A DNA stretch of 64,000 nt. It comes from Phaeodactylibacter xiamenensis. Its GTDB lineage: Bacteria > Bacteroidota > Bacteroidia > Chitinophagales > Saprospiraceae. Both the position numbers and the translations under genes were made by a program. The stretch is taken from positions 186,001-250,000 of the forward strand of contig NZ_JPOS01000079.1 in assembly GCF_000759025.1 (NCBI RefSeq), written 5' to 3'. Within the stretch, counting starts at the first letter, position 1, and every line of letters starts with the position of its first letter. Shown piece by piece: positions 30,283 through 64,000 of the stretch. The notes below the pieces were generated by a model that was not told where the DNA came from, searched no databases, and worked only from the letters and a program-made list of their open reading frames with translations.

Positions 30283-30316
30283 TTTGCTTGTTTTTGGTGT
30301 TTTTTATTTATTTTTG
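30283..30316 (+). promoter_or_regulatory. Promoter of the integrase gene
   Basis: TTTG at 30283-30286 and TATTTTTG at 30309-30316 (TAnnTTTG) are spaced by 22 bp. The start codon (GTG, 30354) follows 38 bp later. Confidence 0.5.
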
Positions 30317-30353
30317 GTCAGCACTTTTTTAAGACATTTTTAAGCAAAAGATA

Positions 30354-31500
30354 GTGACAATTCGGACTGTTCTGTGGGGCCAACCGCGAAAGGATGGCAC
30401 GGCTGCTGTCAAGGTATATGTTAACCTTAATGGGGTAGTGCGATATTTTATGGTTGATGGTATTTATATCGAATCAAAGTTCTGGGATAAGAACAAGCAA
30501 GTCGTAAAGTCTAAACACCCCAACGCAAGGCTTTATAATGCCAAGATCAGAGCCAGGAAAATAGCTCTTGAAGAACACTTCCTTAATGGGGGGACGTTTG
30601 AAAACTTTTTGAAATCTTCAAAAAGCAAGCTATTGACCGAAGCGCTTGAAGAATATATCACTTTGAACAAAGGTGAATATTCTGCTGGTACTGCAAAAGC
30701 TTATCGGAATACTATAAGCCGAGTCAGGCAGTTTGAAAAACACTACTCCATCAAATCATATATCAAGGATATTGACGAAAAATGGGTTGCTGATTTCGTC
30801 ACCTATATGAAGAAGATGGGGTTTGTTAAGGCTACAACTGCTTATCATTTAGGTCGAGTTAAGAAGGCAATTATGCACCAGCGGGTTGATAATCCACATA
30901 TAGAGAAAATCAAGCATAAACAGGGCAGAGCTCGCCCAAAGCCTTTTTTAACCCCTAACGAAATTGCACAAATCGAAAAAACCCCAGATTCTGAGCTGTC
31001 AAAGGCTCAGTATATTGTAAGAGACTTCTTTTTGCTTGCCTACTACCTTTTGCTTAGAGATAGCGATGTGACGGCTATTTCAAAATCAAATTTCATTGAG
31101 AAAAACAGCAAAGTGTTTTACGTAGGAACGAACAAAAAGACTAAAACACAGGTGATTGTGCCTGTAAGTGCCAAGGCAAAAACAATCTTAAAAAGATACG
31201 ATTATGATTGCTCGCGGTACACTAACAGCTATCGCAACAAGTGCATAAGGCGTGTTGCTGAGATAGCAGGAATTAGCACCCTTGTCGAGGATGGGGATGA
31301 GCTTGTTCCAAAATGGAAATTTAGTAAGTATGCACACTGCACGAAGAAGCGCCGCAACGAATTTGGATATGCAGGGGATGAGCCAGCATGGAATAAAGAT
31401 GCTAGGGGGATGGAAAAACCTTGCCAGCTTAGCTGTCTATTTTCGCTCCGGCAACATGGATATTGCTGAGAAAGCTCAGAAGTTTGATCATTTTAAATAA
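30354..31500 (+). pseudogene. Tyrosine recombinase (phage-type integrase) with a +1 frameshift
   Basis: The GTG-started frame encodes an N-terminal Arm-like domain, an SAM-like core-binding domain (about residues 85-185) and the start of the catalytic domain, including the first Arg (YLLLRDSDVTAI) and the beta-hairpin Lys. The rest of the catalytic domain is in the +1 frame: MHTARRSAATN (HxxR), LGGWKN and the Tyr in LAVYFRSGNMD. Removing one A at about 31323 restores KWKFVSMHTARR, the continuous family sequence. The gene is therefore either inactivated by one inserted base or uses +1 frameshifting. All catalytic residues are otherwise present. It probably integrated the element to its right. 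Confidence 0.8.
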
Positions 31501-31514
31501 GCACCTTCCTGATT

Positions 31515-31796
31515 ATGAACAAAGGCATTATTACTGCAATTGAGAAGGCTGAAACACTGACAGAAATTATTGTCAGTCTCATGATTACCGGCTACAAAAA
31601 CAAAGGCTTTTCAAGCCGGGAAGTCGCTGAGAAACTGGGTATCCACAAGTCTGGTATGAGCAGGATCAAAAACGGGAAATACCAACTGGATCTGTCACGG
31701 TTTCTGATTATTTGTGCTATGACTGGTCAAAACCCGATAGAGCTAATGAAAAGGGCCGAAGCATTATTTACTTCGACCCACGAAAAGCATGTATAA
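31515..31796 (+). CDS. Small XRE-type helix-turn-helix regulator
   Basis: A 93-residue DNA-binding protein. The helix-turn-helix is at about residues 32-60 (GFSSREVAEKLGIHKSGMSR, then IKNGKYQL). It lies 14 bp after the end of the integrase frame in the same direction and converges on the polyvalent gene. It may be the repressor or excision regulator of the element. Confidence 0.75.
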   Translation: MNKGIITAIEKAETLTEIIVSLMITGYKNKGFSSREVAEKLGIHKSGMSRIKNGKYQLDLSRFLIICAMTGQNPIELMKRAEALFTSTHEKHV

Positions 31797-31809
31797 AAAA
31801 ACGATATGA

Positions 31810-34800
31810 TTAAGCGGCTGCTTTGCGCAGCTCTTCGGCCACCCGGGCGAGTGCATCACTATATGCCTCGCCTTTTTTTCTGCGCTTTTTGGTTTCTGCA
31901 TGGAGGTAGATGACGTACTTTGGTACACCTACTTTAGTCTTCGCCAGGTTGCCGCAGGTGTCGACCTCCTTTTTGTAGCGTTCGCGCTGTTCTGTGGTGC
32001 AGTTGCCTTTCATGCGGCATTTAGCAAGCTCCGAGTGCAAGGCAGCGCATTTCCGGTATTTCCGCTCCCCCTTGGTGGTGTAAGCTGCCTGCAACTGGCT
32101 TTTGCTTACTACGCTCCGGTAGCTGCCCTGGGCTGGCGTGTCGATCTTGGTCAGGCGGTAAGAGTCGATACAGAGGCTGTACCACTTTTCGGCATCGTCT
32201 TTGCCTTCCTTATAGAGGGTGTGGTTGGCTTTGGCGATCTTCTTCACGCGCTCGGTCTTGGCTTGGATCTCCACCGGTGAGCCTTTGTAGACGACATTCC
32301 AGTGGTAGGCGCGGTAGCCGGCCTGTGGCTTTTTGTAGTAGTCATCGAATTCCAGGACTTCGCCCAGCTTTCCGGCGTTTACCTTGTCCTTGAAATCTTC
32401 CAGGCTTTTCTGGTCTGGGAAGACGACCATGGTGCCGATCACATCTGTTAAGCCTTTTTTGCCAACCAGCCGCTTTCGGCGGAGCTTGTTGATGATGGAA
32501 TATGGCGTTTTGGTGCGGCTGAGGATATCCGTCTCGCCCTCTGCATGCTTTTTGAGGATCTCCACAAATTCATTTCGGGCAGTATCGTAATCCTTTCGGA
32601 AGTCGATGATCTTTTCGATCTCATCGGCCAGCTTAACTTCTTCCACGGTTGTCCCGTCGCCCGGCGTGTAGGGGTCGGGGTCGTCCACGTTCAGTACGCC
32701 GTCCCCATCGTAGTCCCCGAATACGCCCCGGTATTTTTCCAGCGCTTTGGGCAATGGCCGGCCGCTGGGCTTGGGCCCGCTTTGGTGCTTCTCCTTGAGG
32801 TGCTTTTCGAGGGTAGTGTTTTCAATACACTTCCTTTTGAAGCTGTTGGCGTTCATCACGTAGACCAGGTGCCCTTTATCGTCGAAGATGAGGTACTCCC
32901 CTTTCTGAGCGGTTACCGTTATGCTTTCCTTGCCGGTGCCTTTGAGCTGTACGGGCAAGTCTTTGTCTACCTTCAGGGCGTACTCCTGGCAGTGGTTGAG
33001 CATGGGCATCAGCTTGGAGGTGTCCGCAGCGGTACGCCAGGAAAAGGAAGGCTTAGTGCCCGCTGAAGGCTCAGTGCCCGTGCTTTTTCTCAAATTGGAA
33101 AGGTCGTCCGGGTTGTGCAGTACCTTTCCGATAGTAACGATGCCATCATCGTACTCGTACCCTCCGCCCCGGATTTCAGTTTTCATGTCTTCCAAAGACT
33201 GAATAGCAGGCACCGGGCCACCTTCTTGTTTGAGCCTGTCCAGCCACTTTGCGGCTTTGAAGTCCAATTCTACGGCCCACTGCCCTAAATCCTTCGCTGT
33301 TTTAACGACAAGGCCCTTGTTGAACTCGATTGACAGCGTATCGTATTCATAGTAATCTTCTTCCTTGTCTACGAAACTAAGCACCCCGTAGGCTTTGATG
33401 GTTTCCGGGAGCGTGTACTCAGGGTAATCAATTTCCTCCTCAATAGACACCACACCATCCCATGACCAGCCCGGTTCCTGCACTTCTTTCAATAAGTCTT
33501 TTTCAGACTCGAAAGAGAGGCCGTTGTCTTCCATCCACTGTTCAATATCGAGCGAAGCCCGCACGGCTATGCCTTCGTCTTTATTGGCCAGGGCTTTTTC
33601 TTTGGACAGGTAGAGGTCGGCATCTTCCAGATCATACTGCCCCGGTTCTTCCGGCTGGTTCATGACCAGAAAGACTTCCATGGAGGGAGGTGGTGTGAAG
33701 CCTTTGGGCTTTTGGGCCGTGCTGCCTTTCGGCAAATGCACACTGACGTAAGCCTCGGCATACTCTGATGCTTTTTTTGCCGTAAGGCCCATACCCTTCG
33801 CGCCCTGCTCCAGCTTGTCCATCAGGGCCTCGTACTCCTTTTGCCCCATGCCTTTGACCTGGGCTTTGCTGAGCCCCGGATGGGCTTTGTCCATCGCAGC
33901 GTAGTAGTCTTTCTTGTAGACCTTTTTGGCTTTTTTGCGGGGCTTGGCTTTGCTTGTTTTTTGGGACGGCTGATCGTCCAGCTTGCTGTAGTCCCGGTCG
34001 TCGGGGATTTCGGCACCGCCTTTTTCCAGCACTTTTTGAGTTTTACCGTCAATCAGCACGTAGCCGTCTACCATGCCCTTGAGTTCTTCAAAAGCCGTTA
34101 GCCCATTTTGAACGCCCTCTTCGATGACAAAGCGGGGGACGTAGCGCCCGGACTTTTGATAGCGCCCCATTGCCCGTTCCAGGCTGGTGGCTTTATCGAC
34201 TTTCAGGAACATGATGAACACCCGGTAGCCTTCCTTTTTGAGCACTTCGATGAGGGGCTTGTACTTTTTGGATTTGTTCATGGTGCCATCGTAAATGACA
34301 TCATAGCTACAGCCAAACTTGCCCACTTTGCCGAGCAGGGTTTTGACGATATCCTGCGTTTCGCTGTGGGTCTGAGAAGCGTTCCACCCCTTGTATTCCG
34401 GTAGTTTGGCGCGGATTTCGTCCGCATCAACTTTGAAGATAGCCGGGTTGTCCATCCAGTCCTTGTTGTTGCGGATGTAGGTCGACTTGCCGGAGCCTGG
34501 CAGCCCGCCGGTCAGTATGGCGATGGGGGCTTCGCGGCGGATGCAGGTGTTGCCTTCAACTTCTTCGGTGATGATCTTGTTGTGCAGCTTTTTCCGCTCA
34601 TCGGTGTACTCCCCGTACTCCGAGTGCATGTCTTTGGTCTGCGGCAGCTTTTCCAGGTGCGCCTCCAGGGCATCCAAAGCTTGGCTGTCAATGCGCCGTT
34701 TGCCTTTTTCATCCACCGGGGGCATGCTGTCAGGCACGGCGGAACGCGCTTCAAAGAAGCCTCGGGGGCGTGCGCGGATCGCCGCTTCAGTTGGCGCGTG

Positions 34801-35550
34801 GGTATGGTAGTAAGGCTCGCCGTCGTTTTTCCAAAGCTTGGACTGCCGGTCGTAGTATTCCAGGAAGGTGAGCTTGTGCCCATCGTCTCTTTGGTGGCGG
34901 GTGGAAATGGCAAAGGGGACATCATCGACCACGAGGTAGACTTTGTGCTCTCTGCCTTTTACATCGACGATTTTGTCGCCCTTCATGTAGGGCAATGAAT
35001 CCGGGAGCTTTGTGCGTTCGCTATCCAGTTTCTGTATGTACTGCCGGAACTCACGGTTGACATTTCCCAGCCCCTCTTTTTCCTCCGGGCTGGGCGTTTT
35101 GGCTTTGACCCACTGCGGTGCGCGGGCGAGCAGTTCCTGTATTCTTTTATCCTGCCCGGGGAATTCGATATCGCCTTCGCCTACTTTTTCGTAAGTGGCA
35201 AGCTTGCCCTCGGCAGGTTTGGGCAGCATAATGTAATACCGCCCGTCTACGTACCGCTCGGGGTGGTCCCAGTCCACCCGCACTTCCTCCCCTTCCCTGA
35301 CCCAGTTCCAGCGCAGGGTGCCCCCATAGCCTTGCTGCGCGGGGTAGTCCCTTTTCAATGCCGCGAGGATCTGCTCGTCGTAGTCCTCCCACTCAGCCAG
35401 GGCTTCCTTATAGTCTTCGGAACCGGGCTCCGCGATATCGAGTATTTCCTCGAAGTCCCGCATGGCTTCAAAGTTTTCCTGGTACTTTTGGGGCAGGCTT
35501 GCGGTGTCCATGCCCATCGTTTTGAGGTACGCTTGTGCCTTAGATTTCAT
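31810..35550 (-). CDS. Polyvalent protein: zeta-type kinase plus RelA/SpoT-like synthetase domain
   Basis: A 1246-residue multidomain protein. Residues of about 340-505 form a zeta-toxin-like P-loop kinase (ILTGGLPGSGKSTYI, Walker A 348-357; IFKVDADEIRAKLPEY). Residues 945-966 are an EF-hand/thrombospondin-type Ca motif (GDYDGDGVLNVDDPDPYTPG). Residues of about 975-1135 resemble a RelA/SpoT nucleotidyltransferase: RTK (1012-1014), LTDVIGTMVVF (Asp1036), KKPQAGYRAYHW (His1083), SPVEIQAKT (Glu1094). The remaining regions are Lys/Glu-rich linkers and unknown modules. This fits the class called polyvalent proteins of phages and conjugative elements, thought to be delivered with the DNA. No HD hydrolase is present. 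It is the last gene of the minus-strand block. Confidence 0.75.
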   Translation of the reverse strand: MKSKAQAYLKTMGMDTASLPQKYQENFEAMRDFEEILDIAEPGSEDYKEALAEWEDYDEQILAALKRDYPAQQGYGGTLRWNWVREGEEVRVDWDHPERYVDGRYYIMLPKPAEGKLATYEKVGEGDIEFPGQDKRIQELLARAPQWVKAKTPSPEEKEGLGNVNREFRQYIQKLDSERTKLPDSLPYMKGDKIVDVKGREHKVYLVVDDVPFAISTRHQRDDGHKLTFLEYYDRQSKLWKNDGEPYYHTHAPTEAAIRARPRGFFEARSAVPDSMPPVDEKGKRRIDSQALDALEAHLEKLPQTKDMHSEYGEYTDERKKLHNKIITEEVEGNTCIRREAPIAILTGGLPGSGKSTYIRNNKDWMDNPAIFKVDADEIRAKLPEYKGWNASQTHSETQDIVKTLLGKVGKFGCSYDVIYDGTMNKSKKYKPLIEVLKKEGYRVFIMFLKVDKATSLERAMGRYQKSGRYVPRFVIEEGVQNGLTAFEELKGMVDGYVLIDGKTQKVLEKGGAEIPDDRDYSKLDDQPSQKTSKAKPRKKAKKVYKKDYYAAMDKAHPGLSKAQVKGMGQKEYEALMDKLEQGAKGMGLTAKKASEYAEAYVSVHLPKGSTAQKPKGFTPPPSMEVFLVMNQPEEPGQYDLEDADLYLSKEKALANKDEGIAVRASLDIEQWMEDNGLSFESEKDLLKEVQEPGWSWDGVVSIEEEIDYPEYTLPETIKAYGVLSFVDKEEDYYEYDTLSIEFNKGLVVKTAKDLGQWAVELDFKAAKWLDRLKQEGGPVPAIQSLEDMKTEIRGGGYEYDDGIVTIGKVLHNPDDLSNLRKSTGTEPSAGTKPSFSWRTAADTSKLMPMLNHCQEYALKVDKDLPVQLKGTGKESITVTAQKGEYLIFDDKGHLVYVMNANSFKRKCIENTTLEKHLKEKHQSGPKPSGRPLPKALEKYRGVFGDYDGDGVLNVDDPDPYTPGDGTTVEEVKLADEIEKIIDFRKDYDTARNEFVEILKKHAEGETDILSRTKTPYSIINKLRRKRLVGKKGLTDVIGTMVVFPDQKSLEDFKDKVNAGKLGEVLEFDDYYKKPQAGYRAYHWNVVYKGSPVEIQAKTERVKKIAKANHTLYKEGKDDAEKWYSLCIDSYRLTKIDTPAQGSYRSVVSKSQLQAAYTTKGERKYRKCAALHSELAKCRMKGNCTTEQRERYKKEVDTCGNLAKTKVGVPKYVIYLHAETKKRRKKGEAYSDALARVAEELRKAAA

Positions 35551-35563: not shown

Positions 35564-38500
35564 TTAGGCTGCGAGCTGCAGCAGTTTTAGTTTTTTGCGT
35601 TTCCTGGCTTTGGCCAGCAGTATCTTTGTCTTAGTGTTCGCCCTTTGCGGCAACTCTTTTTGCACGCTGCCCATCTGCCGGGCTTGCATACGTTTTTGCT
35701 GAGTTGCATTGTTCGGGGACAGCTCCGCCTCAAGGGCCAGCTCTACATAGGAGCTTTGTTTGACCAGGTAGTAAAACTTCCCATTGCTGCCCCGGTAAGC
35801 CTTCTCTACACGGGCTTTTTTACCGGCATAGCCTACGGTTTCCCCTGCCCGGTACAGGGCATCCTCCGCTTCACCGGCAATGCTTTCCTGGGGCTCTTCC
35901 ACGCGCAGGCCATCGAGCATGTAATTAAGCTGTGCGAACTGTGCCACCCGCGCGTCGATGGAAGCCGCAGCGATGCCCTCGGCTTCCTTTTTCAGCCTGA
36001 TCTCTTCGGCCCTTTCTTGCAGGCGCTCTGCCTTGAGCAGGCCCTCCTTTTCTTTTCTCTTCTGTTCTTTTTCTGCCTGGAGCTGCTCAACCGCTTGTTT
36101 GATGGCTTCTTCGGAGTCGTCCAGCCCTTTGGGCTTGAGGATTTCCACCACGGCCCGGTTGTACTTTGCTACGCTCTTTTTCCAGTTGGAGTACCAATAA
36201 GGGGGCGTTATACCGGCAGGCTTTATCCAGGCATCTTCGTAGGGGTTGCGGTAGTAATGGCTGACTTTGTAGCCCCGCTCTACTTCTTCGCGCAGCGTTT
36301 CTACCAGCCGCCCGTCTTTGAGCTTTTTGGAGCGCAGGATGTAGGAAACCTGCCGCCGCATCTCGTCGGGGTCTTGCGCTGCGCCCTCCGGCAGGCCGCG
36401 GTAGTAGCTTACCGCCTCTACAATCTCTTCCAAACGGTTGAATGCCTGATAGCGGTCGTTGCGCAGCCCTTGCAGAGTGTTAAGCTGGGAATCAATGGCA
36501 ACGATCTCGTCTTCCAGCTCCAGGCTGCGCTCTTTGGCTTCCAGCTCGGCGATGCGAAAAGGGTCTTTGATCAGGACGTACTTGAGCTCTGCTGGGTCAA
36601 AGTCGCGGGTGTCCAGCGTGCTCTGGTTATTATCAAAGTCCCAAATGGCATTGATGCGGGCAGTTTTCTCTTCCAGCTTTTGGAACATGAAGATGTCCAT
36701 GCTGTCCTCCATAAGCGGGTTGACGATGCGCACGCTGCGGTGGATGTTGCCCTGCCGCCACAGCCGCCCTTCGAGCTGATTGACGTCGGTGGGGTTCCAG
36801 GGCAGCTCCAGGATGTAAAGGCAGGAAGCGTAGCGCTGAAGGTTGATGCCCTCGCGTATGGTGGCGCTGCCGATGAGCACTTTGCAGCGGAACTCGTGGG
36901 GGATGTCTTCGTAATCGCGTGTTACCGGGTTAAAACGGCGGCCCAGGAAGGCATTTTGCACCGTCTGCTTGTCCTTGAATCCCATCTTTTTCATGCGGCT
37001 TTCACTGACGATGATGCCCACCTCATGCGGCTGGAAACCTACTTTTTCGATCAGGTAATCGCGCAGCAAAGGGAAGAACTCTACGCCCATATTGCTGTAG
37101 ATGATCTGCCCGGACATAGGCGAGCCCTGCTGCTCATGGTAGGCTTTCACGCTGCGGATGCAGCCGGTGATGAACTCCAGCTTTGCCGAGCTTTCTATGA
37201 AGGCTTTGGGCGATCCGGGGTTCTTCGTTTCCTCATCGCACTCCAAAATGTAGGGCGAAAAGGCTACTTTTCTGGCCATGCCTGCCGCACGGAGCATGCG
37301 CACGCCGCCCCCGTTATCGTCTGAGTCTACCTTGGCGTTTTGGCAAGCCTCATTGACGCTAATCTGCCCGGCAGCGTAGGCCAGGATGCTGTCCATGCGT
37401 TCTTTTTGGTAAGCGTTGAATGGAAGCACCGTTTCAATCGTCTCGTTCCCGCCGAGCCTGATCTCCATACCGTTGACCACCTTGCGGCGCAGGGGCAGGA
37501 CGATCTTGTTGGGCCGCTTGAGGTTTTTGGTCGACTGCTTGTAAAGGAAGAAACGGCGGATGATAGACTGCAGAGCATCGAGGTTGGAGAAGCCCACAAA
37601 TACATCTTTGAACTCCGGGTTGAGCGCAATGGTGAACACCAGCTCATTGGACGTATTGACAAACTGGTCGAAGAACTGCTTGAGGTTCTTCAGCTGCAGC
37701 TCCTGCAAATAGCGCAGCCCCACCAGGCTGATCATGGAGTAAATTTCCATAGGCGAGTTGGTAAAGGGCGTGGCGGTCAACAGCAGGACGTTGCCGGTGG
37801 GGTTTACCCTTTGGACGTACTGGGCGACCATAAAGGTTTTGAGCCCCATGGCCGAAGGCTCCCCGGAGCTGATATCGTAGCGCTTGATGCGCTTTTCATT
37901 GTCCAGGTTTTCTTCCTCCTCGGCTTTTACGGTGGTGAATATCTTCTTAGCGCTGTGCGCTTCGTCCACCACCATCATGTCGAGCCCCATGCGGTCGATA
38001 TTGGCGCGTGCGCCCATCTGCGATACGCCGATCAGCCCCCCGACCTTGTTTTTGAGGCGCTCGTAGGCTTTGCTAGCGGCTTTGCCTGTTGCAAGGTTAT
38101 CTTCCTGCTCTAGGATGGGCATCAGCTCCCCAAAGAAGTTCAGTTCCTGCATATCGTCCAGCCCCACCCGCTTGAAGCCCTGATAGGTCAGGAAGGTGAT
38201 GGAGCCTTCGGGCATGGGCCCCTCCTCCGGGATATTTTCGAGGTAATCTTCGCTGAGGTTGTACAGGTCATTTTGGGGGATGTGCGGCAGTATGCCTTTG
38301 CACTCGCCCATGAACTGTTTGTAGACCTGGTTGGGCAGCACAAAGAAGGGCCGTTTGCACCAGCCGTTTTCGAGGAACTGGGCGGCGATGAAAATAGCGC
38401 ACCAGGTCTTGCCCAGCCCTACCCCGTAGGCCAGGCAGCCCGCGCCCCTGACCTGGGCAAAAGCAACGGCCTCCCGCTTTTCCGGGCGGATGTCCATTTC

Positions 38501-48662: not shown

Positions 48663-48667
48663 AATTT

Positions 48668-49006: not shown

Positions 49007-49021
49007 TGGATAGTTTTTTGG

Positions 49022-52331: not shown

Positions 52332-52334
52332 GTT

Positions 52335-54194: not shown

Positions 54195-54211
54195 TGCTTC
54201 TGGTTTATTGT

Positions 54212-55396: not shown

Positions 55397-55414
55397 GATT
55401 CGCTAAGTTTGTTT

Positions 55415-56014
55415 TTAATGTGTACGAATAATTAGGGCTCCCCAAGGCATACCCATAGTATTGCCTAAAGCAGCTTTGTATGGAGAACCCACAGGTACTC
55501 CATCGGCTCCAGCATCGACATGATTAAGGAAATAACCATAGATTGTTGCAGCCGTCAGTTCGTTGAGTATTTGATCGAGCTTTAACCAGTTAGAGGTTTC
55601 TAAAGATGCTTTGATGATTTGCGAAAGGCCATTCTGATTATCCGGAGTAAATAAATCAAAACCGAAATTAGGGGTAGCTTGCGTAATCTGGCCTTTTCCG
55701 AACGGCGCAGGACAATTGCCGCCTATACAATCGACAGTAATGTTTGTAAGAAAAACGCTCTGCACGTTAATTGCAGTTACGATATATTTATTCTTATTGC
55801 CATCAATAATGACATGGCCGACTGCAACATCACTTGCCGAGTATTCACTCCCTTGATCCGTAACGAATATGTCAAAAGTATAGGTGTCCGAATCGACCGC
55901 AGTCACATTACCAAAAGTACACGTACCTGTCATTTCAGAGTAGAGCGTATCTACCTGGGCAAATAGTGATTGCGCAATTGAAACAGCAATGAATATTAGT
56001 GCGTACTTTTGCAT
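55415..56014 (-). CDS. Short spike protein sharing a C-terminal module
   Basis: A 199-residue Sec-exported protein starting at ATG 56014 (leader MQKYALIFIAVSIAQSLFAQ). A beta-rich N-terminal domain (TGTCTFGNVTAVDSDTYTFD) carries Cys residues. The C-terminal 37 residues (HVDAGADGVPVGSPYKAALG, NTMGMPWGALIIR) align with the end of the repetitive fibre. It is likely a companion spike or tip. Start chosen for the signal peptide; an earlier ATG overlaps the upstream gene. Confidence 0.65.
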   Translation of the reverse strand: MQKYALIFIAVSIAQSLFAQVDTLYSEMTGTCTFGNVTAVDSDTYTFDIFVTDQGSEYSASDVAVGHVIIDGNKNKYIVTAINVQSVFLTNITVDCIGGNCPAPFGKGQITQATPNFGFDLFTPDNQNGLSQIIKASLETSNWLKLDQILNELTAATIYGYFLNHVDAGADGVPVGSPYKAALGNTMGMPWGALIIRTH

Positions 56015-56024
56015 CCTGTCAGGT

Positions 56025-57497
56025 TTAAAATTCTCCAATAACCGTCCAGTCCCCTCCAAATCCATTAAGGCCGCTGATAACGGATGTAGTAGCTCCCCCG
56101 CCTATGCCTGCATTAGGGCAAGTAACATTCCATCCTGCACCTTGCACATCAAGTTGTTGGTTCAAAGTTGTAGTGCGCTCCACAAGGGTAATATCAGGGA
56201 TTACGGCATCAGCTTGGGAGGTATTGAAAGACACACCTACCCACTGAACGGTGATATTCATGTCGCCCCCGGCAGTCAAAAATGAGTTATTGCCATTCCA
56301 TCGAAACCAATCCAGAATAGTTCCGGATGGAACGGTAATCGTCCAGTTGCCTGAGCTGCCGGATAGGGTAGGGGCTGTACCGGTGTATTTGACCATGATA
56401 GTCGCGCCGCCTCCAGTGATTGAGCTGATCGTAGGGGCACTACCGCTGCTGCCTGCCGAATAATCCTGAAAGCTCGGCGTACCGCTATTCCAGACCACGA
56501 CCTTTTGCCCGGATCCGGGTGTAGCATCCGGCATAGCGTATTTCCCTCCAAAAAAAGAAATACCTGAATTGCTCCTGAAGTCTAGAGGTAGGGTGGTAAA
56601 TATTCTTGCGCTATCGCCGGTGAAAAACAAGCCTGATGTATCTGCCGTTGCTTTTCGGCTGATTTCAATACCACCGGCAGAGACATTCACGATAGAAGGG
56701 TAAGAGTTATCAAGCTGTGAATACCTCATTGTGGCGGCTCCTGCTATATTTGTGTAGACGTCTGCTTTTACGCCTAATGTGTAGTTGTTCATCCGCATCG
56801 TCTGACCGGAAGGCTGAATAAGCAAGCTGCCTTTCGTACCGCCAAGTGTGTCCGTCTCTGCTAAAAACTGCCCTTGCAAATCCCTTACCCGATAATTCGT
56901 GAAAGTTTGCCAGTCCAGATTGAAATTAGCACCAAGTACCTCTGTGTTACGTTCCATCGTGCCGCCCAGCTCCACATCGACATCTGAAGTAGCGTCCTGA
57001 TCATTAAGGCCATTTGAGGCGGTAACCGTTGCCCCACCGCCGCCTGTATTGATGGTCACGGTGCTGCCGTCTGTATCGGTAAAGGTGTAGGTACCGTCGC
57101 CGTTATCCACCAGCCCTATGTTGTCTATAGCGGTGCCGATAGCGCCCAGAATGACTTGGATATCCGTCCCGCTCGGGTAGGCTGTACCATTGATGCTGAT
57201 CGGTACGGTCGTTTCTACGGTCCCTGCATCCACATTTACAGCAAAAACATCCTGATCGGTAGTGATGGTCAGGTCGCTACCGTTGTAGGTGAAGTTGGTA
57301 ATGACATCGCCGCCGCCACCGCCGGGGAGGCTTGCAGCCGGTACAATCTGGAAGTTGCCCGGCCCGTCAGAAAGCAGGACGTAGTTTGCGCCTGGTGCCT
57401 GCTTGATGTTTCGGGGCGGATCGATACGCTGCTCCTGGGCAAAGCTCCAGGAAGCAGTCAGACAAAGGGCAGCAAGAATAAAGAGTAGCTTTTTCAT
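56025..57497 (-). CDS. Large fibre-like protein, Sec-exported
   Basis: A 490-residue protein from ATG 57497 (leader MKKLLFILAALCLTASWSFAQ). GANYVLLSDGPGNFQIVPAA and repeated GDGTYTFTDTDGSTVTIN-type segments resemble tail-fibre proteins of Bacteroidota phages. DTLGGTKGSLLIQPSGQTMR is followed by YSAGSSGSAPTISSITGGGA and a Gly/Thr-rich C-terminus. It is probably the main fibre shaft, acting with the two spike genes downstream. Confidence 0.7.
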   Translation of the reverse strand: MKKLLFILAALCLTASWSFAQEQRIDPPRNIKQAPGANYVLLSDGPGNFQIVPAASLPGGGGGDVITNFTYNGSDLTITTDQDVFAVNVDAGTVETTVPISINGTAYPSGTDIQVILGAIGTAIDNIGLVDNGDGTYTFTDTDGSTVTINTGGGGATVTASNGLNDQDATSDVDVELGGTMERNTEVLGANFNLDWQTFTNYRVRDLQGQFLAETDTLGGTKGSLLIQPSGQTMRMNNYTLGVKADVYTNIAGAATMRYSQLDNSYPSIVNVSAGGIEISRKATADTSGLFFTGDSARIFTTLPLDFRSNSGISFFGGKYAMPDATPGSGQKVVVWNSGTPSFQDYSAGSSGSAPTISSITGGGATIMVKYTGTAPTLSGSSGNWTITVPSGTILDWFRWNGNNSFLTAGGDMNITVQWVGVSFNTSQADAVIPDITLVERTTTLNQQLDVQGAGWNVTCPNAGIGGGATTSVISGLNGFGGDWTVIGEF

Positions 57498-57525
57498 CGC
57501 GTAGATGGTGTTTTCTGATGGATAA

Positions 57526-57923: not shown

Positions 57924-58328
57924 TTATATGTAGATCAGATAATGGTCGTCGTCGACTTTGATGAACTCGTTGTTGTGGGTCATTACGGCATCGGTATAGC
58001 CCACCACTTCTTCCACGCTTTCGTACCCGGCACAATCGGTGACTTTCATGCTCACCGTCTTGTTGTTGTCGATATTGAAGGCGGGGTCAAAGGCAGAAAC
58101 GACGGTCAGGGTGCCGCCAACATTCACTTCGCTGGTGGTGCCGTTGCTGCCATCCACCGCGAGGTAGTCGAAGTGGGAGATAGCATTGAAAGCTGCGATC
58201 TTGCCCGATACGGTGACGGTTCCGGTATTCCCTTCCACGTCTGTAAATGTGAAGACTGCCTGGGCATTATCCATGCCAGAGCAGTGCGGGAATACAGGCT
58301 TGCAGTCTTGTAAGCTGATCAAGATCAT
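57924..58328 (-). CDS. Uncharacterised beta-rich protein
   Basis: A 134-residue protein (AVFTFTDVEGNTGTVTVSGK, AFDPAFNIDNNKTVSMKVTD), consistent with an Ig-like or jelly-roll fold. It starts 5 bp after the stop of the upstream gene. No family recognised. Confidence 0.55.
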   Translation of the reverse strand: MILISLQDCKPVFPHCSGMDNAQAVFTFTDVEGNTGTVTVSGKIAAFNAISHFDYLAVDGSNGTTSEVNVGGTLTVVSAFDPAFNIDNNKTVSMKVTDCAGYESVEEVVGYTDAVMTHNNEFIKVDDDHYLIYI

Positions 58329-58333
58329 AGCTA

Positions 58334-58672
58334 TCAGGATACAGGCACGAACCCAAAGAGCGGTGTAGGGATGGTGTGGGAGTCCTCATCGAGAAGAATG
58401 AAGCCGTCATTGGATGTCTGCACACAAACCGTATCGCCATTTTCGAGCGGGCCAGTGATTGAAATTTGGTTGTTGCCGTTGTTGCTTTCCGCCGGTGTAG
58501 TTTCTATGACCACGCCATTGCGCTTGATGACCACCCGGACCTCATCGCCCACGCTGCCTGTTGCATCGACAGTACCGGCATCGTTATCCAGCCCGGCAAT
58601 TACCGCATCGAGCGGATCCTTGTTTCCGGGAGGCCAGATTCGGCTGAAATGACTGCATGATAGAGATGACAT
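58334..58672 (-). CDS. Uncharacterised Ig-like protein
   Basis: A 112-residue protein with a predicted beta-sandwich (VGDEVRVVIKRNGVVIETTP; ISITGPLENGDTVCVQTSND). It is the first gene of the fibre transcript going downstream. The pattern resembles small Ig-like decoration domains. Function unknown. Confidence 0.5.
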   Translation of the reverse strand: MSSLSCSHFSRIWPPGNKDPLDAVIAGLDNDAGTVDATGSVGDEVRVVIKRNGVVIETTPAESNNGNNQISITGPLENGDTVCVQTSNDGFILLDEDSHTIPTPLFGFVPVS

Positions 58673-58748: not shown

Positions 58749-58904
58749 CTAGCTACTGATCGTTCGGCTGATCAATACGCCTGAGACAATGCCCAGGATA
58801 ATGCCAGCGGCAATCAGTGTGCCCACCGCAAGCCCGAAATAATTCGCGGATTGCTTGTCCAGGCTGATTTCAACGTCGTATTGAGTTGGAATGAGATCGT
58901 TCAT
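58749..58904 (-). CDS. 51-residue single-helix membrane protein
   Basis: Starts at ATG 58904 (MNDLIPTQYDVEISLDKQSA) and ends with a hydrophobic helix (LAVGTLIAAGIILGIVSGVL) plus ISRTISS. The track of short genes upstream is tightly packed, with a 10-bp gap here. Likely a minor virion membrane protein. Confidence 0.55.
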   Translation of the reverse strand: MNDLIPTQYDVEISLDKQSANYFGLAVGTLIAAGIILGIVSGVLISRTISS

Positions 58905-58914
58905 AGCGTTGCGT

Positions 58915-59061
58915 TTATACTTCTGTGTTGGCTGGCAGCACGCCATCAGCAATGAGCTTCTTTAGCTTCAATTCCTGATAGTGGTCTACGATAAGGCCTG
59001 CTATCACCGTAGCGATAACGGTGACGGTTGCCAGCGCAGCGTAATGTTTCCAGTTGTTCAT
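58915..59061 (-). CDS. 48-residue single-helix membrane protein
   Basis: A short gene starting at ATG 59061 (MNNWKHYAALATVTVIATVI), with one helix followed by HYQELKLKKLIADGVLPA. Its start overlaps the upstream stop (ATGA). Overlap on one side and close packing on the other support it being real. Confidence 0.55.
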   Translation of the reverse strand: MNNWKHYAALATVTVIATVIAGLIVDHYQELKLKKLIADGVLPANTEV

Positions 59062-59171
59062 GATCGTGGGTCAAATATTACGATGATATAATGCTTGATG
59101 AGTGCGGCAACCAATGAGGCAACCAGGCTTATCACCAAAAAATTCTTCTCTTGTTCGGTCAGTAGCAGCAT
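59058..59171 (-). CDS. 37-residue single-helix membrane protein
   Basis: Starts at ATG 59171 (MLLLTEQEKNFLVISLVASL), overlapping the upstream stop as TGATG and overlapping the next gene as ATGA. It is one helix with a short C-terminal tail FDPRS. Double translational coupling argues for expression. Confidence 0.5.
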   Translation of the reverse strand: MLLLTEQEKNFLVISLVASLVAALIKHYIIVIFDPRS

Positions 59172-59674
59172 CAGGATTCGATTCGTTCCAATTGAGTTTC
59201 CAGCAGGTCGCCGTAGTCCGTTCCTACGCTTCCGAATACCATGCACCCGGAGTCCCAGGTTTTACGCATGGCTTCGCGTATCGTCAGTCCGTATGCCGCT
59301 TCATAAGCGAAATTGAGCGCCCGAAGCTGGTTCAGGTTCAGTGCGCTCACCCGCCGGTAGGTATCACACCGCTTGCTGATGCCAAAGCCCAACAGGTAGG
59401 TGGAAGTCAGCACATCGTGCAGCTCAGACACCCAGGGCTCTAAATCGAAGTTCGTTACCGGGCCATCGCCCGGATTGAAGTTGATATCTTCCACATCAAA
59501 CCGGATCGGCGGCTCCTTTTTGGAGCTAAACCCGAGTGATTTGCTGATTGCCTTCACCAGGAAGTAAATGACGAGCAATACCAGGATGACCACAACGCCA
59601 ATCACGACAGGCTTTACCCACACGGGGCGGCCCCGGAATAGCTGGTTGTAATCATATGGCATTAGCTGTGTCAT
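59171..59674 (-). CDS. Membrane-anchored protein with soluble domain
   Basis: A 167-residue protein: N-terminal helix (VVIGVVVILVLLVIYFLV), then a soluble domain (LNQLRALNFAYEAAYGLTIR, EAMRKTWDSGC) loosely reminiscent of annexin-like helical repeats. The resemblance is weak. It overlaps the preceding gene's stop by 4 bp. Confidence 0.6.
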   Translation of the reverse strand: MTQLMPYDYNQLFRGRPVWVKPVVIGVVVILVLLVIYFLVKAISKSLGFSSKKEPPIRFDVEDINFNPGDGPVTNFDLEPWVSELHDVLTSTYLLGFGISKRCDTYRRVSALNLNQLRALNFAYEAAYGLTIREAMRKTWDSGCMVFGSVGTDYGDLLETQLERIES

Positions 59675-60078
59675 GCAATCGCGTTATTGTCGCAAGCAAG
59701 TTCTCCTATCAGCACATCCCAGTGAGGAAGCCCTACCGATGTTGCATAGGCTTTGATCTCCTGCTCGTAAAACTTAGCCCGGCTCTCGTTAGGGTAGACG
59801 TCGATCGCTTTGAAAAAGCCCCCGACAATACTGCCATTAGTCTGGCTGTCTCCCCTCAGGTATTGTTTTGCCATGCGGTTAAGGTCGCCGCTTGGAATAG
59901 CATCCGGATTCCAGGGCCCAAAGCGGTCGCGGTTAACACGAACGCACGGCATATTGCCCATTGCGCCCGGTTGGTCCGGTTCTACTTTGGGTTGCTGGTT
60001 TTGCATTACGTAGCCCGTCACGCCCAGGAGCACCAAAATAGCTACGATCAGGATGATTGCTTTTGCAGTCTTGCTCAT
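59671..60078 (-). CDS. Membrane-anchored protein with helical domain
   Basis: A 135-residue protein with an N-terminal helix (AIILIVAILVLLGVTGYVM) and a domain containing NRDRFGPWNPDAIPSGDLNR and NESRAKFYEQEIKAYATSVG. Size and layout parallel the next gene, suggesting a paired function. Family unknown. Confidence 0.6.
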   Translation of the reverse strand: MSKTAKAIILIVAILVLLGVTGYVMQNQQPKVEPDQPGAMGNMPCVRVNRDRFGPWNPDAIPSGDLNRMAKQYLRGDSQTNGSIVGGFFKAIDVYPNESRAKFYEQEIKAYATSVGLPHWDVLIGELACDNNAIA

Positions 60079-60090
60079 GGTGTAGTGGGG

Positions 60091-60309
60091 TTAGTTCAAG
60101 TAGGACATCGCACGTTCGACGTTCACCTTATCGGTTTCTGTCTTCACGTCCGTCAGCTTGCTGGTAGGATCATCCTCTGTCGCTGCGGGGATGCTGCCAG
60201 TGCCATTCTTGCTTCCGTTTACTTTCTCCTTCTTGTAGAAGTAGTAAGCCGCGATACCGGCAATGATGACCGCGCCTACGATGATGTGCGTTTTATACTT
60301 CTTCAGCAT
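60091..60309 (-). CDS. Small single-helix membrane protein
   Basis: A 72-residue protein: basic start MLKKYKTH, helix IIVGAVIIAGIAAYYFY, basic KKEKVNGSKNG, and an acidic tail. One of the series of small membrane proteins next to the candidate capsid gene. Confidence 0.55.
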   Translation of the reverse strand: MLKKYKTHIIVGAVIIAGIAAYYFYKKEKVNGSKNGTGSIPAATEDDPTSKLTDVKTETDKVNVERAMSYLN

Positions 60310-60311
60310 GA

Positions 60312-60734
60312 TCAGATTTTTTTGATCAGAGCGATAATGAGAACGAGCATGAAGACAAAGGCTACAGCCACCGCGACATTAGGCAGCGGCCAGCCCAGGA
60401 TGGTCATTTTCGCAAGTGAACCAGCTGGGGCATTGGCAGTAGAACAAGCCAGTTGTAGCTCATTTTCCAGCGCCATGCGGTTGCCATTCTGAACATGATA
60501 CTCCAGGAGGTAGTCTGCCTGATCTCCTGCCAGGTCGATAGGTACATCCAGCGTTTGCAACGCGAAGTCTGTACCATCCTGTTCCGGCAGTTCTGCCACC
60601 CTTTGGTGGATGACCATTTTTAGGTCTTCGGGCGAATACTCCCCATCCTCACGAATAAGCCCCAATGCTGCCAGCTTTTCGCTGCCAGCTAAGGGATTAT
60701 TCAAAAGGATAGCATCAATGATTCCTGCGTCCAT
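60312..60734 (-). CDS. Tail-anchored protein downstream of the candidate capsid gene
   Basis: A 140-residue protein with a soluble helical N-terminal domain (ALGLIREDGEYSPEDLKMVI; LPIDLAG-type segments) and a C-terminal helix (VAVAVAFVFMLVLIIALI) ending KKI. Immediately downstream of the capsid candidate. It may link capsid and membrane. Confidence 0.6.
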   Translation of the reverse strand: MDAGIIDAILLNNPLAGSEKLAALGLIREDGEYSPEDLKMVIHQRVAELPEQDGTDFALQTLDVPIDLAGDQADYLLEYHVQNGNRMALENELQLACSTANAPAGSLAKMTILGWPLPNVAVAVAFVFMLVLIIALIKKI

Positions 60735-60771: not shown

Positions 60772-60799
60772 AAGGGTTGGGCAAGAGCCCAAACCCTTA
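60772..60799 (-). repeat. Stable hairpin at the stop codon of the candidate capsid gene
   Basis: On the minus strand AAGGGTTTGGGC pairs with GCCC-AACCCTT around TCTT; the left arm overlaps the TAA stop. There is no T-run directly after it, so it may block exonucleases or allow partial termination, raising the capsid mRNA relative to downstream genes. Confidence 0.55.
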
Positions 60800-61516
60800 G
60801 TCACGCGCCCGGCCGATCATCCAGAAGGTCAGGATGATGTGCAGCCCGTGGTAGGCATAGAACTCCAGCGCCGTCTCCCGGTCGAAACGCGCCTTGCGGT
60901 CGGTCAGGGGGATCACACGCACGTCCCGGTCATAGTTGCCTGGATCGTTGAAGTTGGACACCTCCAGTTCGCTCGTGATGCGGTCACGGGTGTTGAGGCT
61001 GTGGTAGGTCATCTTCTCCTGAAACTGGAGCTGTGCAGAAGCAGCAGCGCCAGCGGCAGCAGCTACGTCCATCTTGATACCTGCGAAGAGGTAAGTCCAG
61101 CCACACAGGCCGCCCACCCAGGAAGGGTAGAGGTTGTTAGCAGAAGAGCCAATGTACACCGAACCAGCCGGGTACTTGGAAGCAATGCCATTCGCAGCAG
61201 AGAAGAAGTTGCCTTCGTCAAAAAGAACGATGCGCTCCTTTGCCGGCGTCAGGCCCTGGCCAGTGAGGTCGATATGGACCGTTACGGATTCTTCAACTGC
61301 CAGACCGTTAGGAATGGAAGTCGGAACAACAGGCTGTCCGGTAGGCACCTGCATGTTTACGTTTGCGCCACGTTCAGGAGTGACCACCTTGGATTGGGAT
61401 GCGCCCTGCGCACCGAGACGAGATGCGACACCTGGCGCAACGCTACGCGCAACATAGCCAGAGGCTTGCTTTTTGCGCATATCCTGCTCCAGTGCCCGCT
61501 TCAGCATGTTATTCAT
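60797..61516 (-). CDS. Candidate major capsid protein
   Basis: A 239-residue soluble protein from ATG 61516 (MNNMLKRALEQDMRKKQAS). An in-frame ATG at 61684 is rejected because it lies within the upstream terminator. The N-terminal 30 residues are basic and disordered, like internal capsid arms. The body is beta-rich (SVTVHIDLTGQGLTPAKERI; GSVYIGSSANNLYPSWVGGL) with an Ala-rich helix (MDVAAAAGAAASAQLQF). It has its own promoter, a terminator in front and a hairpin behind, and lies by a packaging-type ATPase, which is why I name it capsid. No sequence family is recognised. Confidence 0.5.
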   Translation of the reverse strand: MNNMLKRALEQDMRKKQASGYVARSVAPGVASRLGAQGASQSKVVTPERGANVNMQVPTGQPVVPTSIPNGLAVEESVTVHIDLTGQGLTPAKERIVLFDEGNFFSAANGIASKYPAGSVYIGSSANNLYPSWVGGLCGWTYLFAGIKMDVAAAAGAAASAQLQFQEKMTYHSLNTRDRITSELEVSNFNDPGNYDRDVRVIPLTDRKARFDRETALEFYAYHGLHIILTFWMIGRARD

Positions 61517-61701: not shown

Positions 61702-61732
61702 CTGGGGATGTTACGAGTACGAAAATTACATC

Positions 61733-62047
61733 TTACTTAGAGTCCTGCCAGCAAAAGACCAGTCGGACGTTTTCACCGGCTCTCTCCAATACCGTTTCTA
61801 TGATGATTCGGGCTATCTCAGTAGTGACCTGTGTGCGATGCAGGTAGGGCTCATAGTCGTCCCAAAAACCTTCCACACTTTCTTTGAGCAATCGGATTTC
61901 GCTCATCCAATGACTGCGCCTGCCCAGATTAAGGACATCCCGTATTTCTTCTTTGTAGACAAAACTGCCATTGCAGCGCACTTTGATGATGCGCGGTTTG
62001 TCGTGTGCTCCCGAAGGTGCTTGTATTGGATTTTGCGGTTCCATCAC
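61733..62047 (-). CDS. Small protein coupled to the packaging-type ATPase
   Basis: A 104-residue soluble protein (KPRIIKVRCNGSFVYKEEIR; TEIARIIIETVLERAGENVR). Its start overlaps the ATPase stop by 4 bp, implying coupling. It is the last gene before the terminator. Could be an ATPase accessory or assembly factor. Confidence 0.6.
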   Translation of the reverse strand: MMEPQNPIQAPSGAHDKPRIIKVRCNGSFVYKEEIRDVLNLGRRSHWMSEIRLLKESVEGFWDDYEPYLHRTQVTTEIARIIIETVLERAGENVRLVFCWQDSK

Positions 62048-62751
62048 ACGTCGATTATTTCATGATATTGAACCCAGTTGTCCGTTGCAGGGGCCTTCAG
62101 GACACGCTGGTAGGCTTCCCAAAGCTGCTCGGCGCAGCTGTAGCGGCGGAACTGCCGGTATTCCAGCTCACGCTCTCCGGTTTTGAACAGGATGATCTTG
62201 GCAATCATATCTCCCCGGATGAAAAAGAGCGGCACCCGCATGATCTGGTGGCATACGTAGAAGACTTCCAGCCCGTAGTTCCGGTGGTTGTTTACGATGT
62301 CGATCTGCCAGTCCGGCGGGTTGGCCCGCACATAGGTCGTCCATTCGTCAAAGACTACCATGCCGTTCCGGAAGTGTGCCGCCAGCATTTCGTGCATGTG
62401 CTGGATCTCGCGGCTTTTTCGGCATACGTATCGTAGTGCGCCTTTTTTCCATACCGGGTTGCCTGACGAGTCTTTGAGGGTAAGCAGTTCAAGCGGGTCT
62501 TCCAGGTCAAGCCCAAGTTGCTGACAGGCTTGCTCCACGGTAGGCAGGTGGCGGAACGCCCGGCTAGAGCTCATATCATGGATGAATGCCCTGGGGTAGA
62601 TGCCTTTGCAGTAGGTATTCTGGAAGGACTTCAGGTATTCTTCTACGAGGTCAATCAGCAGGGTCGACTTGCCCTGCCCTTTGCCCCCGATCAGCAAATA
62701 GGATTGGTAATCTCTCGCACCTGTCTTTTTGCGTGTCGCTCTTTTCCCCAT
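62044..62751 (-). CDS. HerA/FtsK/Zot-like P-loop ATPase, likely genome packaging or assembly
   Basis: A 235-residue ATPase. Walker A is IGGKGQGKST (residues 21-30), Walker B is GMVVFDEWTTYV (Asp135, Glu136), and NNHRNYGLEVFYVCHQ (155-169) supplies a conserved Arg/Gln segment as in the A32/FtsK-HerA and Zot groups. There is no membrane helix, unlike Zot of filamentous phages. Small soluble ATPases of this type package DNA in tailless, membrane-containing viruses. It overlaps the downstream small gene and starts 3 bp after the upstream gene. Confidence 0.75.
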   Translation of the reverse strand: MGKRATRKKTGARDYQSYLLIGGKGQGKSTLLIDLVEEYLKSFQNTYCKGIYPRAFIHDMSSSRAFRHLPTVEQACQQLGLDLEDPLELLTLKDSSGNPVWKKGALRYVCRKSREIQHMHEMLAAHFRNGMVVFDEWTTYVRANPPDWQIDIVNNHRNYGLEVFYVCHQIMRVPLFFIRGDMIAKIILFKTGERELEYRQFRRYSCAEQLWEAYQRVLKAPATDNWVQYHEIIDV

Positions 62752-62754
62752 CTG

Positions 62755-63501
62755 TTACACTTCGATTCCTGCCTTACGCACCACTGACCAGTCGATTGTA
62801 TCAAGGTCGGGCTTATTCATCCGGGCTTCCACCAAGCTGCCCACAGCGTTTGCCTCATTCATGACCAGTGAGCCAATGACCGCCCACTTGGTGATATTGG
62901 ACTGCCCACGCAGACGGCGTTTCCGGATTTCCAGCTCGATCAGCTTTGCCAGAGTTTCCCGCTGCTTGTCCTTCCAGGCCAGCCGGTCCAGGAAGTCATC
63001 GCGCATTTGTTCATGCTTTTCGATGTAGCCCCAAAGCTGTTCCAGCAGTGCCTGCTCTTCCGTGCTCCGGCTGTTTTTCATGGAAAGCTGACGGGTGATC
63101 CGCTTGATGACCTTTAAATCGCTGCGGCTCACCGTGCGGTTATAGACGAAAGAGTAGATCAGGTGGCGGGCCCCCTCAAAAGCAACGATAACCAGTTCGG
63201 CGTTGAGTTCGTCCTCCTCCAGCATGTCTGCTGCGGGGACTGTGCCGGGAGCGGTATCTCCCTTTGCTTCGGCTGCTTCCTTTTCCTGCTCTTCTATTTT
63301 CTCTTCCGCATCATTGAGAATGTCCTTAACATCACCGAACATATCGTCAATGATGTTTTCATTCACATCCGCCTCATCCGTCACCTCTTCGTAGTCGGTC
63401 GCCTCACCAATTGGCGGGCGCTCAAAAGAAGGCTTAGTGATTTCGTCCTCGCTTACAGGTTTGGGCAACTCTTTAGGTGTGCCGAAAAAGTTATTTTTCA
63501 T
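62755..63501 (-). CDS. Acidic protein upstream of the ATPase
   Basis: A 248-residue soluble protein. An acidic, disordered N-terminal third (about 1-95, rich in Asp/Glu) precedes a helical basic region (SRSDLKVIKRITRQLSMKNS; WKDKQRETLAKLIELEIRKR). It overlaps the upstream gene by 11 bp. Possibly a scaffolding or packaging co-factor; family unknown. Confidence 0.6.
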   Translation of the reverse strand: MKNNFFGTPKELPKPVSEDEITKPSFERPPIGEATDYEEVTDEADVNENIIDDMFGDVKDILNDAEEKIEEQEKEAAEAKGDTAPGTVPAADMLEEDELNAELVIVAFEGARHLIYSFVYNRTVSRSDLKVIKRITRQLSMKNSRSTEEQALLEQLWGYIEKHEQMRDDFLDRLAWKDKQRETLAKLIELEIRKRRLRGQSNITKWAVIGSLVMNEANAVGSLVEARMNKPDLDTIDWSVVRKAGIEV

Positions 63502-64000
63502 CTTCCTGGATTTCCATGCTATTGAGTGGCGGTACGATCTCGTGCTTTTCGAGCACCTTCAGGCCAGGGGTAAGCTGTTCGCCGAGTTCGCCGAAGTTGT
63601 CGGTGATTTTGTGGAGGTTCTTCCGGATGGAGGCAATCACGCTCACGATAATATTGCCGGTGGCTATATCTTCCTCTATCGATTCCGATTGTTTGAAATT
63701 GAAAGCTTTCATCACGCCTGAAATAAGACGGGAGCCTTTTATTGGGGATTTCTGAGCCATGCCCTTCTTCACTGCATCCACCACAAAGCCAAAGCGGCTG
63801 TAGATGCCGTACAAGCCATTGAGGAGGATGTCGCGCTCTTCCCGGACTTCGGTCAGGGCTTTTTCCAGCGTTTCATAGTTCGATTCCAGCTGCTTGATGT
63901 GTTCTGCCTGCCTTTCCAAAAAATCAGCATCAACGATGTAGACCTTATCTTCATTCAGGAGTTTGAGCGCAGAGCCCCGTTTGCCTGTATCGAAATCCCG
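63491..64000 (-). CDS. Coiled-coil protein, 5' end beyond the window (partial)
   Basis: The frame stays open to the window edge, so the true start lies beyond it. Visible residues begin RDFDTGKRGSALKLLNEDKV, then a coiled coil (HIKQLESNYETLEKALTEVR) and a helical C-terminal half (SVIASIRKNLHKITDNFGEL). No internal ATG near 63919 is needed; the codon there is TTG. Family unknown. Confidence 0.6.
   Translation of the reverse strand, partial: RDFDTGKRGSALKLLNEDKVYIVDADFLERQAEHIKQLESNYETLEKALTEVREERDILLNGLYGIYSRFGFVVDAVKKGMAQKSPIKGSRLISGVMKAFNFKQSESIEEDIATGNIIVSVIASIRKNLHKITDNFGELGEQLTPGLKVLEKHEIVPPLNSMEIQEDEK

Follow-up and report, generated by a model that had tools for sequence, protein, structure and literature searches.

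What kind of mobile element unites an integrase, a packaging-type ATPase, many tiny membrane proteins and giant polyvalent proteins in a single block of genes? The question is raised by the right half of a 64,000-nucleotide (nt) stretch of DNA from Phaeodactylibacter xiamenensis (contig NZ_JPOS01000079.1, positions 186,001–250,000; this whole stretch is referred to as the window), in which a sequence-only reading had suggested a tailless phage. The integrated element spans window positions 30354 to approximately 65160 (about 35 kb), and we interpret it, with a probability of roughly three in four, as the provirus of a tailless phage with a single-jelly-roll shell, a packaging ATPase and probably an internal membrane. 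The earlier suggestion is thus supported, namely, by the jelly-roll fold of the capsid candidate family, the lack of tail-type Pfam families, the right end of the element, and relatives that are either integrated or have identical contig ends. The lineage is apparently undescribed, and its phages probably contain a membrane.

The host, a member of the Saprospirales (Bacteroidota), is represented by a 7.87-Mb draft genome, in which the contig continues for 42 kb to the right of the window. Minus-strand genes run from 64087 to 31810 beside the integrase, with a plus-strand insertion sequence as the sole break, in line with the more than 32 kb of co-directed genes claimed previously. Reading the contig past 64000 placed the right edge at about 65160, just beyond the window end, followed by an insertion sequence with 23-nt inverted repeats (65160–66607, 91%) and, from about 66.7 kb, by host-type genes named by eye (a regulator, an alcohol dehydrogenase, a transporter, and SusC/SusD-like genes). 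Homology to a near-identical copy from the same genus (G002) stops at 65162, that is, at the edge of this insertion sequence, and thus the true right end may be masked. The empty-site search found a homologue of the right-flank dehydrogenase in one out of four same-genus genomes (57%).

The packaging-type ATPase, another feature named in the sequence-only reading, was corroborated by profile comparisons. In the family alignment (21 members), the P-loop glycine and lysine and one histidine are invariant, and nearly all rows also retain N, D, and P residues. At E ≤ 1, 568 PDB sequences match the profile, and most of the best 60 cover the P-loop region only; the long matches among these 60 are the B204 genome-packaging NTPases of STIV2 and STIV, aligned nearly full length (positions 14–197 and 14–187 of 203; E = 6.1e-5 and 1.2e-4, respectively), and TagH, an ABC protein. 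STIV and STIV2 are archaeal viruses with double-jelly-roll shells. Among the phage proteins tested, the packaging ATPase of the Thermus phage P23-77 was the best match (97.6%, E = 3.6e-12), protein P9 of the Pseudoalteromonas phage PM2 also matched (93.9%, E = 1.6e-7), and five non-ATPase proteins of P23-77, PM2, and FLiP, serving as a control, scored below 1%.

The protein previously proposed as a candidate capsid (Table 1) belongs to a family of two sequence clusters, one formed by the window protein and its near relatives, the other by proteins encoded at the corresponding position elsewhere, in different genomes, and the clusters align with each other (96.2%, E = 2.2e-9, 145 columns). An AlphaFold2 model of a family member, L117, built from 24 sequences, has a mean pLDDT of 83.1, a pTM of 0.74, and a core mostly above 90; residues 1–35 are disordered, and about 150 ordered residues hold nine strands. 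Modelling thus gives a single jelly roll for the family, which agrees with the proposed capsid role. In the Foldseek search of the PDB, the best match of the L117 model and the only one at E ≤ 0.001 was a chain of the cowpea mosaic virus capsid (probability 1.00, E = 8.3e-4), with further virus capsids and carbohydrate-binding-module (CBM)-like folds lower in the list, while BFVD yielded five matches at E ≤ 0.001, including a plant-virus coat protein and uncharacterised proteins. According to passages of PMC9719478, two barrels are accommodated within the 239 residues of the PhiCjT23 shell protein, and hence the length of the candidate is no argument against a double barrel; it is the nine strands in about 150 ordered residues that argue against one. 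No PHROG family matched the capsid family below E = 0.008.

Related elements, which the sequence-only reading had recommended seeking in other Bacteroidota, do exist, both as integrated copies and as contigs with identical ends. Single-sequence searches found only the own genome among 395 of the phylum and four out of 99 relatives, and a search of genome contigs retrieved one locus, on a same-genus contig (23,663 nt; ATPase 99% identical). The first ATPase model matched 21 out of 396 genomes of the order, and a wider one (A3), at 100 bits or more, 22 out of 398 family and nine out of 395 class genomes, the own genome being counted in each case and some of the genomes reaching 100 bits having trained the A3 model; at E ≤ 0.001, the latter matched 177 out of 398 and 126 out of 395, mostly over short P-loop stretches, and these matches were not used. 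Multi-copy matches of approximately 55–66 bits, which by eye resemble transposon ATPases, were also set aside. The loci taken comprise 20 of the 24 places from the order search (two others were already included, leaving G549:C626 and G589) and 26 places chosen by score from the family and class searches.

Of 308 genomes searched in the order, 11 matched the capsid profile, in one case only partially. In a joint search, the ATPase was present in all 57 loci, which had been chosen for it, and 31 of them also matched the capsid profile at E ≤ 0.001; neither gene was detected in three control stretches of host DNA. As 23 of these 31 loci contributed rows to the capsid profile, eight lie outside it (G002, L047, L055, L056, L130, L132, L143, L162; E from 7e-4 to 2e-7), L055 and L056 being two copies on one contig and G002 near-identical to the window. 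No other gene beside the ATPase is as widely shared as the capsid gene. In nine out of 31 loci (L042, L047, L052, L117, L120, L121, L122, L124, G598) the two genes are on opposite strands, 2.5–10 kb apart, so that some branches of the lineage have an inverted or divided module.

Among viral contigs of IMG/VR, scans with the window ATPase and models A1, A2, and A6 found no confirmed relative, and the wider models A10 and A11 found two and four contigs, respectively. These six contigs carry the ATPase and encode lysins and many one-helix proteins; L159 also has a weak Rep_1 match. Four of them were compared at their ends, and three had identical ends of 68, 71, and 123 nt (contigs of 19,972, 27,269, and 24,817 nt, respectively), as circular genomes show; the fourth had none. 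A tblastn search of 50,697 phage records, with four ATPases and two capsid proteins as queries, gave no match.

Integrated relatives point to insertion at tRNA genes: in three out of 11 loci scanned, the integrase adjoins a tRNA gene (tRNA-Leu, tRNA-Lys, and tRNA-Arg). In genome G1119, a 24-nt end of the tRNA-Lys gene is repeated 27.0 kb away, outside any tRNA gene; an integrase-like gene lies near the far repeat, and the span could hold two elements. The attachment-repeat search gave none for G1221 and G1145, and one of 14 nt for G1171. The window integrase has a broken frame, the catalytic domain being matched at positions 2–86 of 172 and the remainder lying, by eye, in another frame; a sequencing error is possible. 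Because the integrase frame is disrupted in this way and insertion sequences lie inside the element and at its edge, the window copy may no longer excise, and it is probably decaying. A transposase-like gene (28895–30139, by eye) directly to the left of the integrase might explain why no left attachment site is seen.

The lineage itself is maintained by selection. The 15 genes shared with the near-identical copy differ by 228 synonymous and 92 non-synonymous substitutions (pN/pS 0.12), with values of 0.03 for the capsid candidate and 0.04 for the ATPase; constraint is weakest in a small gene (0.84), and in one gene the two copies do not differ. Such strong purifying selection indicates that the lineage is under selection as a working system.

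Other components named earlier were also recovered. Instead of about a dozen tiny one-helix membrane proteins, a simple hydropathy scan yields 14 minus-strand proteins shorter than 200 amino acids (aa) with a membrane helix, 12 of them with one helix and two with two; for eight of them, homologues occur in related loci other than the near-identical copy. Both lysins carry a C-terminal membrane helix, and the exported fibres correspond to a five-protein module, in which four proteins have signal-peptide-like starts (assigned by eye). An internal membrane is suggested by the small membrane proteins and the anchored lysins, and also by the order of genes, which resembles that in PM2 and P23-77.

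The three giant polyvalent proteins are present as well, with zeta toxin, RelA/SpoT, and helicase domains. Among the 37 window proteins scanned, one Pfam match to ddrB-ParB and at least two PHROG matches to DarB-like antirestriction proteins were found (25 of the 41 PHROG families listed). DarB-like antirestriction proteins are carried by tailed phages such as P1 and by plasmids; here they are encoded beside a tailless-type module. The polyvalent genes (31.8–43.3 kb) are contiguous and co-directed with the rest of the element, a linkage short of proof, and are not seen in the second copy because its contig starts at window position 50542. Ten large proteins of relatives include four with DUF5906 and none with a polyvalent domain; thus, the polyvalent block of the window is not a general feature.

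Table 1. Genes and gene groups of the integrated element, in window coordinates.
Feature	Position	Strand	Evidence and remarks
Tyrosine integrase, catalytic end broken off	30354..31469	+	Pfam Arm-DNA-bind_5, SAM_5, Phage_integrase (2–86 of 172)
C1-type helix-turn-helix regulator	31515..31796	+	Pfam HTH_3, 5.5e-06
1246-aa polyvalent protein, zeta toxin and RelA/SpoT	31810..35550	-	Pfam 1.9e-26, 1.4e-14
1378-aa helicase-type polyvalent protein	35564..39700	-	Pfam ResIII, Helicase_C
856-aa large protein	39702..42272	-	ddrB-ParB match of the protein set (set-level) probably belongs here
N6-adenine methylase, 270 aa	42511..43323	-	Pfam Eco57I, 7.4e-12; N6_Mtase
Small protein, two membrane helices	43327..43584	-	Hydropathy
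GH108 lysin, C-terminal membrane helix	43581..44321	-	Pfam 4e-15; homologues in L048, L041, L040
Peptidase M15 lysin, C-terminal membrane helix	44768..45511	-	Pfam 5.6e-09; homologues in L058, L014
One-helix membrane protein	45504..45821	-	Hydropathy
Insertion sequence inside the late operon, two transposase-type frames	46107..47245	+	Frames by eye
Group of six small membrane proteins, including a two-helix one	47441..49534	-	Hydropathy; three with homologues outside G002
Subtilase, signal-peptide-like start	49656..51305	-	Pfam Peptidase_S8, 1.7e-28; start by eye
Coiled-coil protein, one membrane helix	51315..51722	-	Hydropathy
Five-protein fibre module; sulfatase domain in one protein, signal-peptide-like starts in four	51747..57500	-	Sulfatase 4.3e-25; starts by eye
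Two small soluble proteins	57924..58672	-	Conserved in G002, G019
Five one-helix membrane proteins	58749..60734	-	Hydropathy; all five with homologues outside G002
239-aa capsid candidate, single jelly roll by family model	60797..61516	-	ATG at 61516
104-aa conserved protein between ATPase and capsid genes	61733..62047	-	Homologues in related loci
Packaging-type ATPase	62044..62751	-	Profile comparisons
Two conserved upstream proteins, the second running to 64087, past the window	62755..64000	-	Frames, homologues

If the element is indeed such a provirus, its life cycle might be as follows. The tyrosine recombinase would insert a circular genome, in relatives beside tRNA genes. Upon induction, the late operon would produce the single-jelly-roll shell protein and many small proteins of the host inner membrane, which would become the internal membrane of the virion, and the B204/P9-type ATPase would pump the genome, of single- or double-stranded DNA, into a preformed particle. 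The membrane-anchored GH108 and M15 lysins would open the peptidoglycan during entry, during exit, or at both stages, fibres whose domains, the sulfatase among them, can be exchanged would bind the host, and the DarB-like polyvalent proteins would shield the incoming DNA.

Several observations weigh against this interpretation. No particle has been seen. The fold of the capsid candidate rests on a relative, as the model of the window protein itself, made from five sequences, had a pLDDT of 33 and was discarded; Foldseek TM-scores for the relative are low, 0.41 at best, its second PDB match is the tail protein of a phage, and the matches also include TNF-, C1q-, and nucleoplasmin-like proteins. 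No capsid match was obtained in 26 out of 57 ATPase loci, although ten of these have less than 3 kb downstream of the ATPase, and seven others (L046, L131, L133, L135, L138, L158, L159) encode, by eye, a soluble protein of 182–271 aa near the expected place, perhaps a capsid homologue too diverged to match. The window copy has no attachment repeat of 14 nt or longer, the longest direct match being 13 nt. Finally, the signal-peptide-like starts of fibres, seen by eye in the subtilase too, are odd for a virion assembled in the cytoplasm; addition of the fibres in the envelope, or their anchoring in a virion membrane, could account for this.

Because the phage tail, TNF-, C1q-, and nucleoplasmin-like folds match as well, the jelly-roll protein of a tailless phage could also be a spike, a penton, or a minor protein, with the shell built of something else. 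Spikes too can be single-jelly-roll proteins, and the gene of the candidate being opposite in strand to the ATPase in part of the loci fits this alternative, but the jelly-roll gene is the one most widely shared beside the ATPase and among the most constrained, and we consider a non-shell role unlikely. Considerably less probable is an oversized element of inovirus type, in which a Zot-like ATPase would extrude filaments across the envelope. The many one-helix proteins and the signal-peptide-like starts of the fibres would suit it; at E ≤ 0.1, Pfam Zot matches nine out of 21 ATPases of the family (Pox_A32 matches four), and of the IMG/VR contigs, L158 encodes a G2P-type replication protein. 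It is opposed by the jelly-roll protein and the lysins, and by the ATPase, which in the window has no membrane helix according to hydropathy and matches packaging ATPases over its full length.

The hybrid plasmid or conjugative relic mentioned as an alternative in the sequence-only reading, whose transfer system would account for the polyvalent and membrane proteins, found no support and is very improbable. Zeta toxin, RelA/SpoT, methylase, and ddrB-ParB domains, all present here, occur on conjugative elements too, but no family for relaxases, coupling proteins or secretion is among the 25 that Pfam found in the 37 window proteins, the right flank, read by eye, has no relaxase or type IV secretion genes, tblastn of plasmids with the window ATPase gave no match, and relatives retain the core of ATPase, membrane proteins and lysins. 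The 37 proteins do not comprise the transposases, the overlapping frame 57526–58035, and two plus-strand genes past 64078.

The same 25 Pfam families contain no terminase, portal, or tail family, as had been claimed, and thus the window proteins lack the genes characteristic of Caudoviricetes; nor does Pfam find such families in 78 of the 97 listed proteins from three IMG/VR contigs, where it identifies one integrase and two LPD1 polyvalent domains. A tailed prophage with undetected terminase, portal, and tail genes is therefore the least probable reading, hardly credible at all. In its favour, phrog_2666, labelled terminase large subunit, matches the window ATPase (E = 1.4e-4) and 18 out of 21 family members (E ≤ 0.1, best 1.3e-11), which also counts against a tailless phage; a terminase small subunit PHROG family matches six out of 21. 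We read the phrog_2666 label as reflecting the shared ATPase fold. At least one baseplate hub and one tail protein with endopeptidase domain also appear among the PHROG matches of the 78 proteins (25 of the 45 families listed), labels that probably reflect lysin domains.

Among known systems, P23-77 (Helvetiavirae, now realm Singelaviria) is one of the closest to our preferred reading, a provirus of a tailless phage. In P23-77, as in the element, the ATPase gene shortly precedes the capsid genes, and small proteins, lysins, and a single-jelly-roll shell are encoded (passages of PMC8812541 and PMC12714852; partly general knowledge). The elements share with this group the FtsK/HerA-type packaging ATPase and, on a relative of the window protein, the single-jelly-roll shell protein. 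A single capsid candidate was recognised here, and P23-77 has two paralogous capsid proteins side by side, VP16 and VP17; its genome is 17,036 nt, with no integrase seen in its annotation. By hhalign, a comparison at the sequence level, the candidate scored below 1% with VP16 and VP17 and had no match to PM2 P2 or the FLiP capsid.

PM2 (Corticoviridae) has a similar order of genes (ATPase P9, P7, capsid P2, and several small structural proteins), but its genome is 10,079 nt, and its shell is a double jelly roll according to passages of PMC9719478. The Flavobacterium phages FLiP and PhiCjT23 share Bacteroidota hosts with the elements; the same passages describe a membrane for both and prophage forms for PhiCjT23, and those of PMC5894146, a double jelly roll and no packaging ATPase for FLiP. 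The elements, in contrast to Finnlakeviridae, have a packaging ATPase and no FLiP-type capsid; neither ATPase nor capsid matches link them to FLiP (9,174 nt). Homologues of its structural lytic enzyme are encoded in two IMG/VR contigs (L162 16499–17011, E = 6.8e-27; L160 17036–17233, E = 6.5e-7), so that the link to FLiP runs through a lysis gene only. Charybdis elements, 4.6 kb long in the description given in parts of PMC12324425, are different.

We found no description of such elements in the open PMC literature, outside which most subscription papers lie. A tailless phage with a jelly-roll shell and a packaging ATPase is a known kind; the lineage and the polyvalent cargo appear new. The chances are about even that the elements form an undescribed temperate tailless lineage across Bacteroidota, with a B204/P9-type ATPase and a shell protein that either arose independently of Helvetiavirae or diverged past sequence recognition, the window member adding DarB-like proteins and exported, enzyme-bearing fibres. 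If so, the lineage would merit high rank in virus taxonomy, and, with the window member as a tailless phage that carries DarB-like polyvalent proteins as a defence shield, the known routes by which antirestriction proteins travel would be widened. Tailless phages are easily missed, as illustrated by the capsid family lacking a PHROG match below E = 0.008 and by the IMG/VR relatives being reached only via wider ATPase models; the profiles are now available for finding such proviruses, and the relatives for induction tests. Separate gains of the ATPase by single- and double-jelly-roll viruses have been proposed (passages of PMC8812541), and a lineage with one recognised jelly-roll shell gene and a packaging ATPase bears on how both groups acquired it.

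Some other features of the elements were noted. In the fibre region (52335–54194), the window has a fused fibre–sulfatase gene, compared with two separate genes in G002:C41 (L010/L011 2168–5816), and the genes flanking this variable region are near-identical, as if receptor-binding cassettes had been swapped. One copy in genome G019 (L013 1140–8269) carries between the ATPase and capsid genes an insert of about 8 kb that encodes, by eye, a 1525-aa repeat-bearing NTPase-like protein and a caspase-like protein, perhaps defence cargo. Similar reverse-transcriptase-type proteins are found in the early region of L160 (3048–4034, RVT_1 6.2e-17) and, by eye, of L162 (3234–4220) and L133 (18689–19648). 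A PAPS-reductase-type protein in L158 (6075–6953; set-level match, assigned by eye) represents a gene kind also annotated in P23-77. Outside the element, window positions 14001–16000 have a low GC content, 0.387 compared with about 0.53 around.

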